Part shown: positions 8,459 to 21,821 of the stretch, piece by piece | How positions within the stretch are numbered: the stretch's first letter is position 1 | Layout: each line of letters begins with the position of its first letter | NCBI GenBank assembly: GCA_025210965.1 | Contig: JAOAQY010000034.1 | Coordinates: 1 to 32,206 of the forward strand | DNA length: 32,206 nucleotides | Reading direction: 5' to 3' | Origin: Tissierellales bacterium | GTDB taxonomy: Bacteria; Bacillota; Clostridia; Tissierellales; JAOAQY01 | The notes under the pieces: generated by a model | Database searches by the model: none | The model's input: the letters and a program-made list of their open reading frames with translations, nothing else | What the model was told of the DNA's origin: nothing | Translations under genes and position numbers: made by a program

Positions 8459-8551
8459 TGACGAAATTTTCTGCATTAAAAAAAGAACGATTAGGCAAAA
8501 ACATGTTGTAAAATGCTTTTGTCCCTGTCCTTTTATCTGAGAGTTTCGTCA
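8459..8551 (-). promoter_or_regulatory. Possible expression platform of the glycine riboswitch
   Basis: On the RNA, TGACGAAA in the second aptamer (8551 down to 8544) is exactly complementary to TTTCGTCA downstream (8466 down to 8459). Pairing would break the aptamer core and could be the ligand-free state. A U-rich stretch (8441 down to 8434) lies beyond it, but I do not see a strong classical terminator hairpin. Confidence 0.35.
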
Positions 8552-8699
8552 CTAAAAAGTGAGTTGCTTCTTCGATGCCCAATTAAATGAGTCTCTCCAG
8601 GGGCGTGTCCGACTATTGTAACTGACCTGAGAGTTTCAGAATAGATTAAGCACGTCTATTCTTTGCGCCTACGGTTATGAATACATATCTCCAATAGTC
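8521..8699 (-). ncRNA. Tandem glycine riboswitch
   Basis: Read on the minus strand, two aptamers follow each other. The first is closed by GACTATTG/CAATAGTC (8699-8692 with 8618-8611) and contains GGAGA, GGCGCAAAG and ACTCTCAGG. The second contains CCTGGAGAG, GGCATCGAAGAAGCAAC, ACTCTCAG and AAAAGGACAGGGAC. These are the conserved glycine aptamer segments in the correct order, joined by the short linker typical of the cooperative tandem form. The RNA lies about 115 bases upstream of the PTS IIC-like gene, which it should control; glycine riboswitches are mostly ON switches. Confidence 0.94.
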
Positions 8700-12371: not shown

Positions 12372-13130
12372 TCAATTACAAAATGATTTTAATCTATCAA
12401 TACCATGTGTTTTATCAATTAGTACGATGAGTATTAAAGCTAAGCCACCACCAATTGTAAACTGAAACACATTTGAAGGAATGCTGAATAATGGAGTTAC
12501 AAAGCTACCGTACATAAGACTAGCAGCTAAATAGTAACCAAAAACCATAAAACTTCCAGATATTATCATTGCTATATAATGATTTATTGATATCAAAGTT
12601 GAATGCTGTTTTTTCTTGAAAATCATGAAAAGCATAAAACTTAAAACTAGAAATAGCAAAATATAAAGAAAGTTAGTTGTTGCATTTTGGATTAAACTAC
12701 TAGCTTCAGAGATAGAGGATAATTCATCATTTGCACTTAAAACAGCATTAGCAGATAATCTCGGTATATAAATTCTCAGTGCTGTTGTAAGGCAAATTAG
12801 TAATCCGACTAGGCCTCCCTGTATCATTCGAAATTTCATATCGCTACGATTTTCACATAAAAGTCCTATTATAGCTCCCATTAGAGCTTTTATTATCAGG
12901 GTAGGAATAATCCAATGTGGATAGCCCATAGCATCAGCAAGAGCTGATCCGATACCGCCAGCTAGAGCTCCAGTTTTCCAACCAAATAGTACTGCAGATA
13001 AGAAAATCATACTATCACCTGCATGAATATAACCTTGAGTGAATGGAACGGGTATTCGAATAGAAAAAGTTCCAATAAATACAAGTGCAATCATAAGTCC
13101 ACTGATAACAAGTTTTCTGATAGATGTCAT
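12372..13130 (-). CDS. ECF transporter S component, probably vitamin B6 (PdxU-like)
   Basis: A 252-residue membrane protein with about six helices and the substrate-binding layout of ECF S components: RKLVISGLMIALVFIGTF (helix 1 with the Ala-rich face that contacts EcfT), then VPFTQGYIHAGDSMIFLSAVLFGWKTGALAGGIGSALAD, which is typical of the riboflavin/B6 group. There is a non-conserved stretch at about residues 125-150. The start at ATG 13130 follows GAGG with an 8-base gap and is preferred to GTG 13139. The ATPase and EcfT partners are not in the window, as expected for shared-module (group II) systems. The divergent neighbour is a MocR/PdxR-type PLP-binding regulator, so I infer transport of pyridoxine or pyridoxal; other small vitamins are possible. 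Confidence 0.82.
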   Translation of the reverse strand: MTSIRKLVISGLMIALVFIGTFSIRIPVPFTQGYIHAGDSMIFLSAVLFGWKTGALAGGIGSALADAMGYPHWIIPTLIIKALMGAIIGLLCENRSDMKFRMIQGGLVGLLICLTTALRIYIPRLSANAVLSANDELSSISEASSLIQNATTNFLYILLFLVLSFMLFMIFKKKQHSTLISINHYIAMIISGSFMVFGYYLAASLMYGSFVTPLFSIPSNVFQFTIGGGLALILIVLIDKTHGIDRLKSFCN

Positions 13131-13157
13131 ATTGGTCACCTCAATTATAGATTTAAT

Positions 13158-13186
13158 ATTTTAACTTCGAAGTATTGTTTAACAAT
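13158..13186 (-). promoter_or_regulatory. Promoter and palindromic operators of the ECF S-component gene
   Basis: On the minus strand TTGTTA, 16 bases and TAAAAT form a fair promoter. The palindrome ACTTCGAAGT (13164-13173) lies in its spacer and the dyad ATTGTTTAACAAT (13174-13186) covers its -35 box. This is a suitable place for the divergent MocR-type regulator to bind. Confidence 0.5.
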
Positions 13187-13256
13187 TGCTATAGATATGT
13201 TACACTAAAACTGTACATAAAAAAAGAGACAATTTGAAATAAATGGAGGGGACACT

Positions 13257-14666
13257 TTGGAATTATTGCCTTATATTGATTTTAAAATAAAAAAGCCTAT
13301 ATACATACAAATATACGACTACATAAAAAATGAGATTCTAGAAGGGAAAATAAAAACTGATGAAAAGTTGCCATCAATTAGACTATTAGCAGAGAATTTG
13401 AACATAAGCAAAACTACTGTTGAAGCTGCTTATACACAATTAATAATGGAGGGATATGTTGAAAGTAAGCCGCACAGAGGTTACTTTACAAAGTTTGTAG
13501 AAAAGTATGATGTCGAAACTGAAAATATGGTGAAGTCGAGTGTAGATTATGAAGTTAATAGTGTGTCTTCTACAAAGTCTATTGATTTATGCGCAGCACC
13601 AATAAGTATTTGGAAAAAATCATATAATCAAGTTATGAGGGAATGTCCAGAAGTATTTACATCATATGGTGAAGTACAAGGTTCTAAGCTATTGCGGATA
13701 GAACTTATGAATTATTTACATCGTTCTAGAGGTGTGAATTGTGATGTAAATCAGATTATAATTGGATCTGGAGTCCAAGATTTGTTGACATTATTGGTTA
13801 TGATATTGGGAGAAAACGTTAAAATAGTGGGCATTGAGGAGCCAGGATTTAGAAAAGCTAGCAAGCGTTTTGAAGATTTGGGTTTGAAAATATGTCCTAT
13901 AGAAGTAGAAAATAGTATGCTTATAAAAAATATACAAAAAGAAAAGGATTTGGATTTGCTATATTTGACACCTTCACATCAATTCCCAATGGGGCAGGTT
14001 ATGCCTATAGCTAAGAGGATAGAGGTATTACGCTGGGCTATTGACAATGATACATACATTATAGAAGATGACTACGATAGTGAACTTAGATATAAAGGTA
14101 ATCCGATACCTAGTTTACAAGGGATTGATAAGAGTGGCAGAGTAATATATATAAGCTCTATATCAAAAGTGCTTACGCCTGCCATAAGAATCAGCTATAT
14201 GGTTTTACCAAAAACACTTTGCAAATTATATGAGAGTAAAAGAGATAGATATAGTCAAACAGCATCTTCTATAGACCAGATTGTTTTGGCTAATATAATG
14301 AGAGAGGGGAATTTTGAAAAACATATAAGGCGTATTAGAAAAATTTATAGTAGGAAAAATGAAATACTGATACTTTCATTAAAAAAAATATTTGGAGATG
14401 ATGTAGATATAGTAGGTCAAGAAACTGGTTTGAATATTTTGGTCAAATTTAATGGTATAAAACGAAAAATAGATGAAAATACTAATTGGAATAATAACAA
14501 TATGACATTAACTCCGCTGGATTATTACTATTATAGTAAGAAAGATATAAAAAAAACGAAATATTTTTTATTGTCATATGCAGGCGTTTCTGATGAAGAG
14601 ATAGAAAATAACATAGAAAAACTTCGCGAATGGATTAAACTTGATAAAAAATACCAGAAGTTATAG
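13257..14666 (+). CDS. MocR/PdxR-type GntR regulator with aminotransferase-like domain
   Basis: A 469-residue regulator of the MocR subfamily. Residues about 12-80 are a GntR winged helix (YIQIYDYIKNEILEGKIKTDEKLPSIRLLAENLNIS is split by the family pattern LPS-R-LA). Residues about 105-460 form a fold-type I aminotransferase domain: IIGSGVQDLL, EEPGFRKA, LTPSHQFPMG, IIEDDYDSELRY and the PLP-lysine motif SISKVLTPAIRISY, where the lysine is kept. Such proteins sense PLP and control B6 synthesis or uptake (PdxR) or GABA and related pathways. The TTG start is preceded by GGAGGGG with a suitable gap. Divergent orientation to the ECF S gene supports B6 control; activator or repressor cannot be told from sequence. 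Confidence 0.9.
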   Translation: MELLPYIDFKIKKPIYIQIYDYIKNEILEGKIKTDEKLPSIRLLAENLNISKTTVEAAYTQLIMEGYVESKPHRGYFTKFVEKYDVETENMVKSSVDYEVNSVSSTKSIDLCAAPISIWKKSYNQVMRECPEVFTSYGEVQGSKLLRIELMNYLHRSRGVNCDVNQIIIGSGVQDLLTLLVMILGENVKIVGIEEPGFRKASKRFEDLGLKICPIEVENSMLIKNIQKEKDLDLLYLTPSHQFPMGQVMPIAKRIEVLRWAIDNDTYIIEDDYDSELRYKGNPIPSLQGIDKSGRVIYISSISKVLTPAIRISYMVLPKTLCKLYESKRDRYSQTASSIDQIVLANIMREGNFEKHIRRIRKIYSRKNEILILSLKKIFGDDVDIVGQETGLNILVKFNGIKRKIDENTNWNNNNMTLTPLDYYYYSKKDIKKTKYFLLSYAGVSDEEIENNIEKLREWIKLDKKYQKL

Positions 14667-14697
14667 AATGAAGAGTAGGTATTGATAAAAAATACCA
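14641..14697 (+). repeat. Direct repeat and dyad upstream of the sigma-54 promoter
   Basis: TTGATAAAAAATACCA occurs at 14641-14656 and again, identical over 16 bases, at 14682-14697. The second copy is part of a dyad, GGTATT (14678-14683) and AATACC (14691-14696). It lies about 90 bases upstream of the predicted sigma-54 start, a usual distance for enhancer-binding protein sites. The first copy overlaps the end of the regulator gene. Confidence 0.5.
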
Positions 14698-14748: not shown

Positions 14749-14767
14749 TTGGCACGCAAATTGCATT
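14749..14767 (+). promoter_or_regulatory. Sigma-54 promoter of the glycerol operon
   Basis: TTGGCACGCAAATTGCATT matches the -24/-12 consensus of RpoN promoters almost perfectly, with the GG and GC pairs spaced exactly 12 bases. The predicted start is near 14776. A small hairpin (GACG/CGTC with AGGG/CCCT inside, 14778-14802) would lie at the 5' end of the RNA. The operon's last gene encodes a sigma-54 activator. Confidence 0.9.
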
Positions 14768-15566: not shown

Positions 15567-15587
15567 ATGGGGGCATCTAGCCCCCAT
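15567..15587 (+). other. GC-rich hairpin before glpK
   Basis: ATGGGGG and CCCCCAT form a 7-bp stem around a 7-base loop in the 76-base gap between the transporter genes and glpK. There is no T run after it, so it is more likely an RNA-stability or processing element that separates expression levels than a terminator. Confidence 0.6.
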
Positions 15588-15589
15588 AA

Positions 15590-17116
<1,527 letters not shown>

Positions 17117-17142
17117 ATTCTTGCCTTAATTAAATAGATAGT

Positions 17143-17267
17143 GTATACTTAGAGTATACGAAAGTCTTTTAGGTCCGTACAGACCTACAATTAAAGATGT
17201 TGGCGGAGATGATGAGAGCCACACGGAACACCCATGGAATGATGGGTCTGTTCAGTGTGGCTTTTTT
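17143..17267 (+). promoter_or_regulatory. Structured leader/attenuator between glpK and the glpA-like gene
   Basis: This 181-base gap contains three ordered structures: a GTATAC/GTATAC hairpin (17143-17159), a TAGGTC/GACCTA hairpin (17170-17187), and a long terminator, with AGCCACAC and GTGTGGCT (17217-17224, 17055-type outer stem ending at 17262), GAACA/TGTTC and CCCAT/ATGGG inside, then TTTTTT to 17267. ACAGACC of the second hairpin (17179-17185) is complementary to GGTCTGT in the terminator's 3' arm (17245-17251), extendable to 9 pairs, so the two structures exclude each other. That is the logic of attenuation. Bacillus glpD has a GlpP-dependent antiterminated leader, but no glpP is in the window and no known riboswitch class was recognised. 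Confidence 0.65.
17217..17267 (+). terminator. Conditional terminator inside the glycerol operon
   Basis: The outer stem AGCCACAC/GTGTGGCT is followed by six T residues; inner stems are GAACA/TGTTC and CCCAT/ATGGG. It is placed 30 bases before the glpA-like start, in an intra-operon position, which only makes sense if termination is partial or regulated. Confidence 0.85.
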
Positions 17268-17297
17268 AATGCCTATGAAATTAGAGGAGGATACGAA

Positions 17298-18743
17298 ATG
17301 TATGATGTAGTGGTAATTGGAGCTGGAGTAATTGGAGCTGCTGTTTCTAGAGAATTATCAAAATTTAATTTGAAGACGATTATTTTAGAAAAAACAAATG
17401 ATGTAGCATGTGGAACGACAAAAGCAAATAGTGCAATAGTTCATGCTGGATATGATGCACATGTAGGGACTAATAAGGGAAAATTTAATGCGCTTGGAAA
17501 CGAGATGTATGGAGATGTATGCAAAGAGTTAGAAGTTCCTTTTAAAAGAATTGGTTCGTTAGTCGTTGCTTTTGATGAAGAAGATATTCCTACATTAGAA
17601 GAATTACTTGAAAATGGTAAGGAACTAAAGATACCAGGCCTTGAAATCATAGGAAAAAAGAGAATAAAAGAAATGGAACCAAATTTAAGTGATGAGATAG
17701 TAGCTGCATTATATGCTCCTTCAGCAGGGATAGTAGAGCCTTGGGAATTGGCTATAGCGTATGCGGAAAATGCAATGGACAATGGAGTGGAACTTAGTTT
17801 GAATACAGAAGTCGTTGATATTGAGAAGAAGGAAAACGTTTACAGTATCAAGACTAATAAAGGAAATTTCGAATCAAAATTCGTAATCAATTGTGCGGGA
17901 GTTTATGCAGATAAGATTTATAATATGGTAGTTGATAACCCAGAATTTGAAATAAAGCCGAGAAGAGGACAGTACTATCTCCTAGATAAAGAAGTTAATG
18001 GTTTAGTTAATAAGGTAATATTCCAATGTCCTACAAAACTTGGAAAAGGCGTATTGGTTGCACCTACTGTCGACGGAAATGTTATTGTAGGGCCTGATGC
18101 AGAAGATTTAGATCAAAATCAGAAAGAAGCAACAAACACTACTGGTGATCGTCTTGAGTTTGTTAGAAATATGGCGCTTAAATCGTGTGCAGATATTCCT
18201 TTTGGTAAAAATATTACTACATTTGCGGGTCTTAGAGCCGAGCCATCTACTGGAGATTTCATAATCGGAGAATCTGAATTTGCAAAGAATTTTATCAATT
18301 GTGCTGGAATTAAATCGCCAGGATTATCATCAGCTCCTGCGATAGCATGTCATATAGCAGACTTAGTGGAAGAATTATCTGGAGGATTGGAACAGAATAA
18401 AGACTATAATCCGAAAAGACGCCCTAGAGTAAAATTTGAAGAGCTTAATGCTGAAGAAAAAGCGGAAATGATAAAGAAAGATTCTAGATATGGAAGAATT
18501 ATCTGCAGGTGTGAGATGATTACAGAGGGTGAAATAGTTGATGCTATACACAGAAATGCAGGTGGACGAACATTAAATGGTATAAAGAGAAGAGTTAGAC
18601 CTGGAGCTGGACGTTGCCAAGGTGGATTCTGTGGACCAAGGGTAATGGAGATATTAGCTAGAGAGTTAAAGATGGATATGGAAGATGTTTTACAGGAAAA
18701 TGAAGGATCCAAAATACTTGTTGGCAGAACAAAGGAAATTTAG
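17298..18743 (+). CDS. glpA: Anaerobic glycerol-3-phosphate dehydrogenase, GlpA-like FAD protein with [2Fe-2S] domain
   Basis: A 481-residue flavoprotein that should oxidise glycerol-3-phosphate to dihydroxyacetone phosphate. It has an N-terminal FAD Rossmann motif (VVVIGAGVIGAAVSREL with acidic end ILEK), the DAO fold with GTTKANSAIVHAGYDA, the FVINCAGVYADKI strand and TFAGLRAEPSTGDFIIG, then a BFD-like domain (about 400-460) with four Cys in CRC and CQGGFC spacing to hold a [2Fe-2S] cluster. This organisation is the usual clostridial GlpA. AGAGGAGG precedes ATG. The two following genes supply partner subunits. It is downstream of a conditional terminator, so it may need a second signal beyond sigma-54. 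Confidence 0.92.
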   Translation: MYDVVVIGAGVIGAAVSRELSKFNLKTIILEKTNDVACGTTKANSAIVHAGYDAHVGTNKGKFNALGNEMYGDVCKELEVPFKRIGSLVVAFDEEDIPTLEELLENGKELKIPGLEIIGKKRIKEMEPNLSDEIVAALYAPSAGIVEPWELAIAYAENAMDNGVELSLNTEVVDIEKKENVYSIKTNKGNFESKFVINCAGVYADKIYNMVVDNPEFEIKPRRGQYYLLDKEVNGLVNKVIFQCPTKLGKGVLVAPTVDGNVIVGPDAEDLDQNQKEATNTTGDRLEFVRNMALKSCADIPFGKNITTFAGLRAEPSTGDFIIGESEFAKNFINCAGIKSPGLSSAPAIACHIADLVEELSGGLEQNKDYNPKRRPRVKFEELNAEEKAEMIKKDSRYGRIICRCEMITEGEIVDAIHRNAGGRTLNGIKRRVRPGAGRCQGGFCGPRVMEILARELKMDMEDVLQENEGSKILVGRTKEI

Positions 18744-18758
18744 TAGGAGGGTATCGAC

Positions 18759-20015
18759 GTGTTGAATTATGATATTGTAGTAATTGGAGGCGGTCCAGCA
18801 GGGCTTGCAGCAGCTATAGAAGCAAGAAAAAATGGAGTAGATAGTATTTTAGTTATAGAAAGAGATCGTGAACTTGGTGGTATATTGCAGCAATGTATTC
18901 ACAATGGATTTGGACTTCATGAATTTAAAGAGGAACTTACAGGTCCTGAATATGCAGAACGATTTATATTGGAATTAAAAAAGGAAAATATTGATTATAA
19001 ATTAGATACTATGGTATTAGATGTATCAGAGGACAAAAAAATAGCTATGATAAATACAAAAGATGGGTATACTGAAATACAAGCGAAGGCAGTTGTATTA
19101 TCTATGGGATGTAGAGAGAGAACTCGTGGAGCAATTGCTATTCCAGGATATAGACCAGCAGGAATATTTAGTGCTGGTACAGCCCAGAGATACCTTAATA
19201 TGGAAGGATACATGGTTGGGAAAAAAGTAGTTATACTTGGTTCGGGAGATATCGGTCTAATTATGGCTAGAAGGATGACATTAGAAGGCGCTGAGGTTCA
19301 AGCTGTAGCCGAGCTTATGCCGTACTCGGGTGGACTGAATAGAAATATAGTTCAGTGTTTGCATGATTACAATATACCTTTGCTATTGAGTCATACAATC
19401 ACAGATATAAGAGGGAAAGATCGAGTGGAAGGTGTTACTATAGCTGAAGTTGACGAGAATAGACGTCCTATATCGGGAACTGAAAAACATTATGATTGTG
19501 ATACAGTGTTGTTTTCTGTTGGCTTAATTCCGGAAAATGAATTGTCTAGAGGAGCTGGGGTTCAAATTGATAGGCGAACAAGTGGTCCTATTGTAAATGA
19601 ATGTATGGAAACATCTATTGAAGGAATTTTTGGATGTGGTAATGTCGTTCATGTTCATGATTTAGTTGATTTTGTGACAGCAGAGAGTAGAAGAGCTGGT
19701 GAAATGGCAGCTAAATATGTTAATAAAGAGCTTAAAAATGAAGGAAATATTATTCTTACAAAACCACAGAGTGGAATAGGATATATAGTTCCACAAAAAA
19801 TTAGAGAGATAAATGTTCAAAAGGAAGTAACTCTATTTATGAGAGTTAGAGATGTATATCACAATGCAGAGATGGTTGTGAAAGCAGATGGTGAAGAAAT
19901 CAAGCGTATGAAAAAACGTCATTTGGCACCTGGTGAGATGGAAAAAGTTATATTAGAAAAATCTTTATTTGAAGATAAAAATTACAAAGAGATTTCTATA
20001 GAAATAGAGGCTTAA
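18759..20015 (+). CDS. GlpB-like FAD/NAD(P)-dependent oxidoreductase subunit
   Basis: A 418-residue pyridine-nucleotide-disulphide-type flavoprotein. It has an N-terminal FAD site (YDIVVIGGGPAGLAAAIEARKNG, acidic VIERD), a redox-site region ELGGILQQCIHNGFG, the NAD(P) site GKKVVILGSGDIGLIMARRM, and the second FAD contact IFGCGNVVHVHDLVDFVTAES. A C-terminal domain of about 90 residues follows. It is next to the GlpA-like and DUF1667 proteins in clostridial glycerol operons, and probably passes electrons between the dehydrogenase and NAD or another carrier. GTG start at 18759 after TAGGAGGG, 15 bases past the previous stop. Name by context rather than by E. coli glpB homology. Confidence 0.88.
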   Translation: MLNYDIVVIGGGPAGLAAAIEARKNGVDSILVIERDRELGGILQQCIHNGFGLHEFKEELTGPEYAERFILELKKENIDYKLDTMVLDVSEDKKIAMINTKDGYTEIQAKAVVLSMGCRERTRGAIAIPGYRPAGIFSAGTAQRYLNMEGYMVGKKVVILGSGDIGLIMARRMTLEGAEVQAVAELMPYSGGLNRNIVQCLHDYNIPLLLSHTITDIRGKDRVEGVTIAEVDENRRPISGTEKHYDCDTVLFSVGLIPENELSRGAGVQIDRRTSGPIVNECMETSIEGIFGCGNVVHVHDLVDFVTAESRRAGEMAAKYVNKELKNEGNIILTKPQSGIGYIVPQKIREINVQKEVTLFMRVRDVYHNAEMVVKADGEEIKRMKKRHLAPGEMEKVILEKSLFEDKNYKEISIEIEA

Positions 20016-20030: not shown

Positions 20031-20402
20031 ATGAGTGAAAAAGAAATGATCTGTATCGTATGCCCTATGGGATGTCGAATGACTTTGATAAAAGATGATA
20101 ATCAGCCAGATGGCTATAGAGTTGATGGTAATACATGTAAAAGAGGATATAATTATGCAATAGAAGAGCAGACAAATCCTAAAAGAGTTATTCCTACAAC
20201 TGTAAAAATTAAAAGTGGTATATTAAATAGATTGCCAGTTAAAACAAATGGTGCGGTTCCAAAAGAACTCATATTTGAATGTATGAAGGTTATAAATAAG
20301 GTGGAAGTTGAAGCTCCTATAAAAACTGGTGATGTAGTTGTTGAAAATATTTTAGGAACGGGAATAGATGTAGTAGCTACGAGAACTATGGAGCGAGTAT
20401 AA
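20031..20402 (+). CDS. DUF1667 protein, probable Fe-S subunit of the GlpAB-type complex
   Basis: A 123-residue cytoplasmic protein matching DUF1667. The N-terminal third holds conserved Cys residues (ICIVCPMGCRMTLI and, later, NTCKRGYNYA), a CxxC-x3-C pattern and a fourth Cys, well suited to an iron-sulphur cluster. The C-terminal part (RLPVKTNGAVPKELIFECMKVINKVEV) is typical of the family. It always travels with GlpA- and GlpB-like flavoproteins, so it probably is their electron-transfer subunit, taking the place of the longer GlpC of E. coli. 15-base gap to the previous gene and a GAGGAAGAGG site. Confidence 0.88.
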   Translation: MSEKEMICIVCPMGCRMTLIKDDNQPDGYRVDGNTCKRGYNYAIEEQTNPKRVIPTTVKIKSGILNRLPVKTNGAVPKELIFECMKVINKVEVEAPIKTGDVVVENILGTGIDVVATRTMERV

Positions 20403-20429: not shown

Positions 20430-21821
20430 ATGAATATTATCAGGACGCCAAAAAATGATCGATTTTCATGGGTAGATGAAGTTACAGCAAAAGACTATGA
20501 AGATGTTTTAAACGCATTTGAACAAGGAATATGTGTTGTAAGTGCTAGTGGGCGAATAGTCTATATTAATAGAGCTTATGAAGATATTTTTAATATGAGT
20601 GATTTCATAGTTAGAGGAAGAAGTATTTTCAATACTGTAAAGGATGAAATGCTTCTAAAGGCATATAAAAATAGAAAAAAATATACTGGAATCGTCAATT
20701 ATGATGGCCGAAAAGATGGTGTTTTTGGAATGGCTTTTCCCTTCTTTAAAGATAATGAGTATCAAGGCGTAGTTGGATTATATACATTAGATTCAAAATC
20801 TATTAAGAGAGAAACTGCAGTTCTTAGAGTAAAGGATAAAAAAGAGCTTACGAATCCATTTGATAATGTAATAGGGCAAAGTAGATCACTTGTAGAACAA
20901 ATGAATATAGCCTATAAGGTTGCTAAGACAAATTCGACTGTACTGATTAGAGGAGAAAGTGGTACTGGAAAGGAAGTTGTTGCAAGAGCTATTCATAAAT
21001 ACGGAAATAGAAATGATAAACCATTTGTTGCAGTTAATTGTGGGGCTATTCCAATAAATCTTATAGAATCAGAGTTATTTGGCTATGAGAAAGGGGCTTT
21101 TACCGGTGCAAATCACCAAAGAATTGGTAAGTTTGAATTAGCTCATGGTGGAACTTTGTTTTTAGACGAAATAGGTGATTTACCACTTGAGGTTCAAGTA
21201 AAACTTCTTAGAGTTATCCAGGAGAAGGAGTTTGAGAGAATTGGTGGAAATGAAAGTATTAATGTGGATGTAAGAATAGTTGCAGCTACTCACAAAAACC
21301 TGGAGAAAATGATTGATGAAGGTGAATTTAGAGAAGACCTGTACTATAGAATAAATATAATTCCAATAGAATTGGATGCATTGCGTGAAAGAAAGGAAGA
21401 TATACCCCTTTTAGTTGATTATTTTTTGGAGAAGACTAAAAACCGTTTATGTGTTGATGAGCTAGATATAGATTCCAAAGCAATGGAAGCATTAATGCAA
21501 TATGATTGGCCAGGAAATGTTCGTGAATTGGAAAATATACTAGAACGAATGGCAATATTGAGTGAAGATAGTATAATAGGTTTTGCTGATGTTCCTAGTC
21601 ATATTGCAAATGTTTATAGATACAATCCAAAGACAACAGATTATAGTGGTCTTATAAATATGAGTTCTTCGGGAGAAATTGCTACTATGGAAGAGTATGA
21701 GTGTGAAGTTATAATGAGAGCGATGAAGAAATACAAGAGTTTCAATGCTGCAGGTAAAGCATTGGGAATCACTCATAAAACAGTAGCCTCGAAAGTAAGA
21801 AAGTATGGAATAGAATATTGA
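20430..21821 (+). CDS. Sigma-54 activator with PAS domain, regulator of the glycerol operon
   Basis: A 463-residue bacterial enhancer-binding protein. Residues about 20-120 form a PAS sensor (ALNAFEQGICVVSASGRIVYINRAYEDIF). The AAA+ domain (about 145-385) has Walker A GESGTGKE (about 174-181), the sigma-54 contact loop GAFTGA (about 222-227), Walker B GGTLFLDEIGDLPL and the Arg finger region FREDLYYRIN. The C-terminus is a Fis/TyrR-type helix-turn-helix (FNAAGKALGITHKTVASKVRKYG). It is the last gene of the operon that begins with a sigma-54 promoter at 14749, so autoregulation and direct control by a ligand binding the PAS domain are likely. No receiver domain is present, so it is not a response regulator. 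Confidence 0.95.
   Translation: MNIIRTPKNDRFSWVDEVTAKDYEDVLNAFEQGICVVSASGRIVYINRAYEDIFNMSDFIVRGRSIFNTVKDEMLLKAYKNRKKYTGIVNYDGRKDGVFGMAFPFFKDNEYQGVVGLYTLDSKSIKRETAVLRVKDKKELTNPFDNVIGQSRSLVEQMNIAYKVAKTNSTVLIRGESGTGKEVVARAIHKYGNRNDKPFVAVNCGAIPINLIESELFGYEKGAFTGANHQRIGKFELAHGGTLFLDEIGDLPLEVQVKLLRVIQEKEFERIGGNESINVDVRIVAATHKNLEKMIDEGEFREDLYYRINIIPIELDALRERKEDIPLLVDYFLEKTKNRLCVDELDIDSKAMEALMQYDWPGNVRELENILERMAILSEDSIIGFADVPSHIANVYRYNPKTTDYSGLINMSSSGEIATMEEYECEVIMRAMKKYKSFNAAGKALGITHKTVASKVRKYGIEY

Follow-up and report, generated by a model that had tools for sequence, protein, structure and literature searches.

In Bacillus subtilis, the leaders of glpD, glpFK and glpT contain terminators that are relieved by GlpP together with glycerol-3-phosphate (PMC9604022). 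Deletion of glpP abolishes the induction by glycerol, and the glpD leader confers glycerol control on other promoters (PMC9604022). In the hut operon, the ligand-activated protein HutP acts on short repeated NAG boxes and blocks formation of a terminator (PMC7430163). A 2013 study of Thermotoga stated that the regulon of the GlpP antiterminator family was not analysed there by comparative genomics (PMC3750489), and we found no published GlpP RNA motif for clostridia in the open-access literature, which excludes the original GlpP papers of the 1990s. Here we describe the region between glpK and glpA in a 32,206-nucleotide stretch of Tissierellales DNA, hereafter the window. We consider it highly probable that this gap is a conserved, GlpP-responsive conditional terminator leader for glpABC and not a riboswitch, with a pair of GAGA boxes as the presumed point of GlpP contact.

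Results

Layout of the gap between glpK and glpA

The intergenic gap spans 17117-17297 (181 bases). A first-pass annotation of the window, made from the sequence, had described two small hairpins and a strong terminator in it, and all three were recovered in their places by sequence inspection and folding. The features of the region are as follows.

15599..17116, + strand: glpK, glycerol kinase, the upstream gene (TIGR01311, 768.6 bits, cut-off 590)
17121..17149, + strand: candidate sigma-70-type promoter in the gap, TTGCCT-17-TATACT (consensus scan)
17143..17159, no strand: perfect palindrome GTATACT-TAG-AGTATAC (GTATACTTAGAGTATAC), 7+7, over the -10 hexamer (sequence)
17164..17198, + strand: leader hairpin 2, 12 pairs with a 5-nt bulge and the loop CGTACA (folding)
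17206..17209, + strand: GAGA box 1, in the unpaired state and a proposed site of contact with GlpP (conservation among glpA leaders)
17214..17217, + strand: GAGA box 2, the 5' foot of the terminator stem, paired with the U-tract at 17262-17265 (alignment A1 and fold)
17214..17267, + strand: conditional intrinsic terminator, stem 17214-17265 (folding and covariation)
17284..17290, + strand: glpA ribosome-binding site GAGGAGG (sequence)
17298..18743, + strand: glpA-like FAD dehydrogenase, the first gene past the terminator (identity from NCBIfam comparison)
18759..20015, + strand: second subunit in the glpB position, pyridine nucleotide-disulphide oxidoreductase fold (PF07992)
20031..20402, + strand: third subunit in the glpC position, DUF1667 (PF07892)

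The glpA-like protein scores 355 bits, under the cut-off of 460, against its top NCBIfam model, NF033460 (type 2 glycerol-3-phosphate oxidase). A gene for a PrdR-like sigma-54 activator (20430-21821) lies behind glpABC.

The candidate promoter in the gap matches 9 of 12 consensus positions, which is not significant alone, since the scanned region held 14 such candidates where 18.9 were expected. It is supported by the relatives, because many related leaders place a strong promoter at the equivalent position upstream of the same element (for example TTGACA or TTTACA-17-TATAAT). The palindrome at 17143-17159, which the first-pass annotation had read as the first of the small hairpins, is present in the sequence but overlaps the -10 hexamer of this promoter. 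On transcription from the gap promoter it would thus act as DNA, and it would appear in RNA only upon read-through from glpK. It is a possible operator for some regulator. The genome contains no second perfect copy of it and near matches are rarer than those of a reversed-pattern control, and we therefore rejected it as a genome-wide operator. Hairpin 2, with its inner stem TAGGTC-CGTACA-GACCTA at 17170-17187, appears to be an extra of this leader and not a shared feature of its relatives, because the distance from the end of the -10 hexamer to the match of our covariance model is 46 nt here and 11-31 nt in relatives whose promoters score 11 or 12.

The upstream part of the operon and its surroundings

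Upstream of two DUF6905 genes and glpK, the + strand at 14750-14765 reads TGGCAC-N5-TTGCA (TGGCACGCAAATTGCA), which matches the sigma-54 promoter consensus exactly. This site is preceded by two identical 16-nt repeats of TTGATAAAAAATACCA (14641-14656 and 14682-14697, 41 nt apart), which resemble activator sites. Within its own genome, a search with covariance model R1 (described below) detected no GAGA-box element at glpK. Since glpK lacks the element and stands behind a sigma-54 consensus match, the kinase and the dehydrogenase look to be separately controlled. This, together with the covarying terminator described below, supports the earlier suggestion that antitermination divides kinase from dehydrogenase expression.

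The two DUF6905 genes (PF21846; 14822-15172 and 15196-15540) lie side by side directly before glpK, in the usual place of glpF, and encode small membrane proteins that belong to one family, making them a candidate two-part glycerol transporter. Between the second of them and glpK, a perfect, GC-rich hairpin of 8 pairs, ATGGGGGC-ATCTA-GCCCCCAT, occupies 15567-15587; it has no T run on the + strand and may serve in the processing or stability of the RNA. Elsewhere in the window, a glycine riboswitch aptamer (RF00504, 52.6 bits) lies on the - strand at 8515-8610, and the stretch 12372-14666 holds a PdxR-type MocR regulator (NF052282) and, as its divergent neighbour, an ECF transporter substrate-binding component, likely a vitamin B6 uptake pair.

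Tandem GAGA boxes and a covarying terminator

The conserved part of the gap that the first-pass annotation did not mention is the tandem of GAGA boxes at 17206-17217, which runs into the terminator as GGAGATGATGAGAGCCACAC. The terminator consists of a basal stem (17214-17224/17255-17265), an apical hairpin (17230-17247) with the six-base loop GGAATG (17236-17241), and a run of six T at 17262-17267. Folding of the gap region, as a stretch of 191 nt, gave -56.2 kcal/mol, whereas shuffles averaged -38.9 and 0 of 200 were as good (z = -4.8). This energy is due mainly to the terminator; the 72-nt motif that holds the terminator folds at -30.4 kcal/mol.

For comparison, 60 genomes belonging to this order supplied GlpA relatives, whose upstream DNA was read in the correct orientation. 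The window's own family has no further member among the compared genomes. TGAGA-N4-GAGA running into a terminator is present in most of these leaders. In a set of 21 glpA leaders for which box 2 and the T run were the sole criteria of choice, box 1 reads GAGA in 18, compared with 2.3% at random positions of the same loci, and box 2 is near-invariant across alignment A1. In the same alignment, 8 of the 13 basal-stem pairs and 4 of the 5 apical-hairpin pairs are changed on both sides, values reached by 0 of 500 shuffles, and 93% of cells are paired, compared with 41-59% in slid controls. The window carries a compensatory change of its own, CCCAT/ATGGG in place of the CCTAT/ATAGG of most leaders. 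Many clostridial versions have the core ATGGARTGAT in their apical hairpin. By folding and covariation, then, this leader of glycerol-3-phosphate genes holds an intrinsic terminator, as expected of a GlpP leader. The first-pass annotation had proposed that a lack of covariation in homologues would speak against its reading; the terminator does covary, and the same comparison counts against the alternative pairing discussed below.

Distribution of the element

Covariance model R1 was trained on 21 of the order's leaders and matches there by construction; its independent matches are those upstream of glpP and those in genomes outside the training set. In the window's own 3.6 Mb genome, R1 has a single match at E up to 1, which is this site (2.2e-11). 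A simple pattern of two boxes, a spacer and six T likewise finds this site alone, and the reversed control yields 3 matches, so that the simple pattern alone is uninformative. Of the order's 249 genomes, 33 have an R1 match at E 1e-4. Among the matches listed for the first 60 genomes, nearly all are just upstream of glpA or glpP, judged by position; this assignment does not cover four stronger ones (G038:C1:599683, G025:C57:43500, G027:C11:4875 and G001:C164:1374). The element stands before glpA or glpP in most of the 33 genomes and spans many families of the order.

Several relatives carry the element directly before glpP itself (L054, L065, L066, G011:C13:44332, G030:C1:420064 and G052:C10:16653), which suggests that GlpP may govern its own gene in them; the R1 search did not show it at glpP of the window's own genome. 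One locus has the GAGA-box terminator twice in tandem before glpA (L059:1410-1477 and 1501-1565; G001:C188). In family f14, the terminator that precedes glpA is shorter and has only one GGAGAAGG box (leaders L005, L009 and L011), a divergent or decayed version. Among plasmids, similarity to the leader DNA was limited to one Fusobacterium record, whose match falls in the glpA coding start.

Association of the element with GlpP

The window's genome encodes GlpP (PF04309, E 4e-64) on a different contig, unlinked to the glpK-glpA locus (G000:C96:36815-37333), and this protein is a clear homologue of the solved GlpP-type structures 3kts and 1vkf. GlpP is present in 32 of the 33 motif genomes, compared with 116 of 249 overall (P 3.5e-11, a value that ignores kinship), and the sole motif genome without GlpP is an assembly that is 85% complete (G039). 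When the comparison was restricted to genomes of the 60-genome set with a close GlpA, the motif was found in 28 of 32 with GlpP and in 1 of 4 without it, the latter being the incomplete assembly (Fisher P 0.018, or 0.005 with that assembly set aside). The other three, G019, G026 and G050, have a close GlpA and neither GlpP nor the motif. The closest sequenced relative that we found, a Dethiosulfatibacter MAG with 66% GlpA identity (L070), has a glpK-glpA gap of 27 nt and no leader. No GlpP was detected in this MAG, which is weak evidence since incompleteness may explain it, and R1 has one weak match elsewhere in it (E 0.018). The genomic GlpP and its strong co-occurrence with the motif support the earlier naming of GlpP and glycerol-3-phosphate as the likely signal.

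Outside the order, the Bacillaceae member Cytobacillus spongiae has the gene order glpP-glpF-glpK-glpD. Its glpF leader is matched by R1 (E 0.0016) and reads GAGATTAAGAGA followed by a terminator; its glpD leader, recognised by eye only, reads GAGACCACGAGAGACC followed by a terminator. Both leaders thus have GAGA-N4/5-GAGA and a terminator, beside glpP. R1 missed the glpD leader, which is below the model's reach, and within 8 kb of glpP in Enterococcus, Listeria, Paenibacillus and Acetoanaerobium it gave no convincing match, a result that counts neither way. The motif was undetectable in 84 of the 116 GlpP-positive genomes of the order, which, together with the missed Cytobacillus glpD leader, indicates that GlpP targets vary or diverge.

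These data bear on the simplest account of the gap, in which the glpK transcript stops at an ordinary terminator and the expression of glpA is separate and unregulated, with no antitermination. A strong intrinsic terminator 3' of glpK and a promoter-like sequence in the gap fit that account. However, the candidate promoters here and in relatives lie upstream of the terminator, so that an unconditional terminator would silence glpA; moreover, there is conservation of the GAGA boxes, and the occurrence of the element follows that of GlpP. We regard an ordinary terminator as decidedly unlikely.

The alternative pairing and other antitermination schemes

The first-pass annotation had proposed that mutually exclusive hairpins form a switch here, an attenuator or new riboswitch in which ACAGACC (17179-17185) pairs with GGTCTGT (17245-17251) of the terminator. 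The two segments are complementary, with 9 pairs possible including one G-U, and hairpin 2 has a 5' arm similar to the terminator's apical 3' arm. When the upstream part was shuffled by dinucleotides, about 2% of the shuffles held a 9-pair helix and 5% held 7 Watson-Crick pairs, which places the complementarity marginally above chance. Forcing this helix gave -27.9 compared with -46.0 kcal/mol over the full stretch, and -21.9 compared with -41.7 kcal/mol from the likely transcript start. Relative to hairpin 2 plus terminator it is thus disfavoured by 18-20 kcal/mol, and it loses at each 3' end tested (17252, 17256, 17260 and 17267). Its only conflicts are with hairpin 2 and with the terminator's apical part, and it crosses the basal stem as a pseudoknot, so that it does not simply exclude the terminator, whose basal stem is left unblocked except by topology. 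None of 37 related leaders, all from outside the window's own family, has an equivalent helix; their best helices are at chance level and differ in place and sequence. An antiterminator built from these segments, with or without a ligand, is therefore very improbable. Regarding a riboswitch, nothing like the core of an aptamer is conserved upstream of the GAGA boxes, and the matches of Rfam 15 families to this leader are noise below gathering scores, in keeping with the earlier remark that no known riboswitch class is recognisable. What stands of the attenuator proposal is the conditional terminator; the riboswitch and the disfavoured, unconserved pairing do not.

Hairpin 2 (CGTACA) and the apical hairpin of the terminator (GGAATG) both have six-base loops, as would suit a dual-hairpin antiterminator of the ANTAR type recognised by EutV or NasR. 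In ANTAR loops the first base must be A and the fourth G (PMC3369931), which holds for neither base in either loop here, and hairpin 2 is not common to the related leaders. We rejected such an element on these loop bases and give it next to no chance of being right.

Discussion

The reading that we favour is a GlpP-controlled terminator. Judging from the sequence and from the known GlpP systems, the terminator is almost certainly opened by the glycerol-3-phosphate sensor GlpP, through a predicted GlpP-RNA contact. Polymerase starting at the gap promoter, or reading through from glpK, would transcribe the two GAGA boxes and then the intrinsic terminator. When glycerol-3-phosphate is lacking, box 2 would pair with the U-tract, the stem would close and transcription would end at about 17267. 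When GlpK makes glycerol-3-phosphate, GlpP would bind it and then the GAGA boxes, keeping the foot of the stem open so that the dehydrogenase genes are made; glpABC would thus be expressed only when glycerol-3-phosphate is present. Antitermination by GlpP and glycerol-3-phosphate is the part of this model that derives from B. subtilis, while the terminator, its covariation, the tandem boxes, the genomic GlpP and its co-occurrence with the motif come from the present analysis. From the anatomy of the element, we infer that the GAGA boxes are the GlpP contact and that blocking of the stem foot is the mechanism, and any function of the conserved apical loop ATGGARTGAT would likewise be read from the anatomy.

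In its general form, the idea is that GAGA-N4-GAGA running into the foot of a terminator is the recognition site of GlpP, which keeps the foot single-stranded, and that the ATGGARTGAT hairpin is a possible second contact in clostridia. We lean slightly towards this idea. If true, it would define an RNA family that is missing from Rfam, and the GAGA boxes would be the RNA code of the antiterminator family left out by the 2013 Thermotoga study (PMC3750489). What may be new is that the GlpP target is defined here by GAGA boxes, a definition with no Rfam match. An intergenic terminator is explained without a new riboswitch, and tandem GAGA boxes plus a covarying terminator provide a compact, searchable definition of a protein-controlled leader. 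Should GlpP turn out to bind at the boxes, RNA targets of its family would become predictable across Bacillota. In this genome, the arrangement suggests a feed-forward order in which the kinase comes first and its product then unlocks the dehydrogenase.

Comparison with known systems

The leader has in common with the GlpP leaders of B. subtilis a promoter, a GlpP site (here proposed) and an intrinsic terminator in the 5' leader of a glycerol gene, together with a genome that encodes GlpP. The glpF and glpD leaders of a Bacillaceae relative, Cytobacillus, have the tandem GAGA arrangement too. Unlike the B. subtilis leaders, the element lies between glpK and glpA and governs an anaerobic-type, three-gene dehydrogenase; glpK is without a detectable element and apparently under a sigma-54 promoter; and the apical ATGGARTGAT hairpin is that typical of many clostridial versions. 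The likeness to HutP is one of mode only and not of membership, since the protein family, the ligand and the boxes (two GAGA) are different here. ANTAR systems (EutV/NasR) likewise use protein-mediated antitermination in leaders, whereas their loop signature and conserved dual hairpin are absent from this one.
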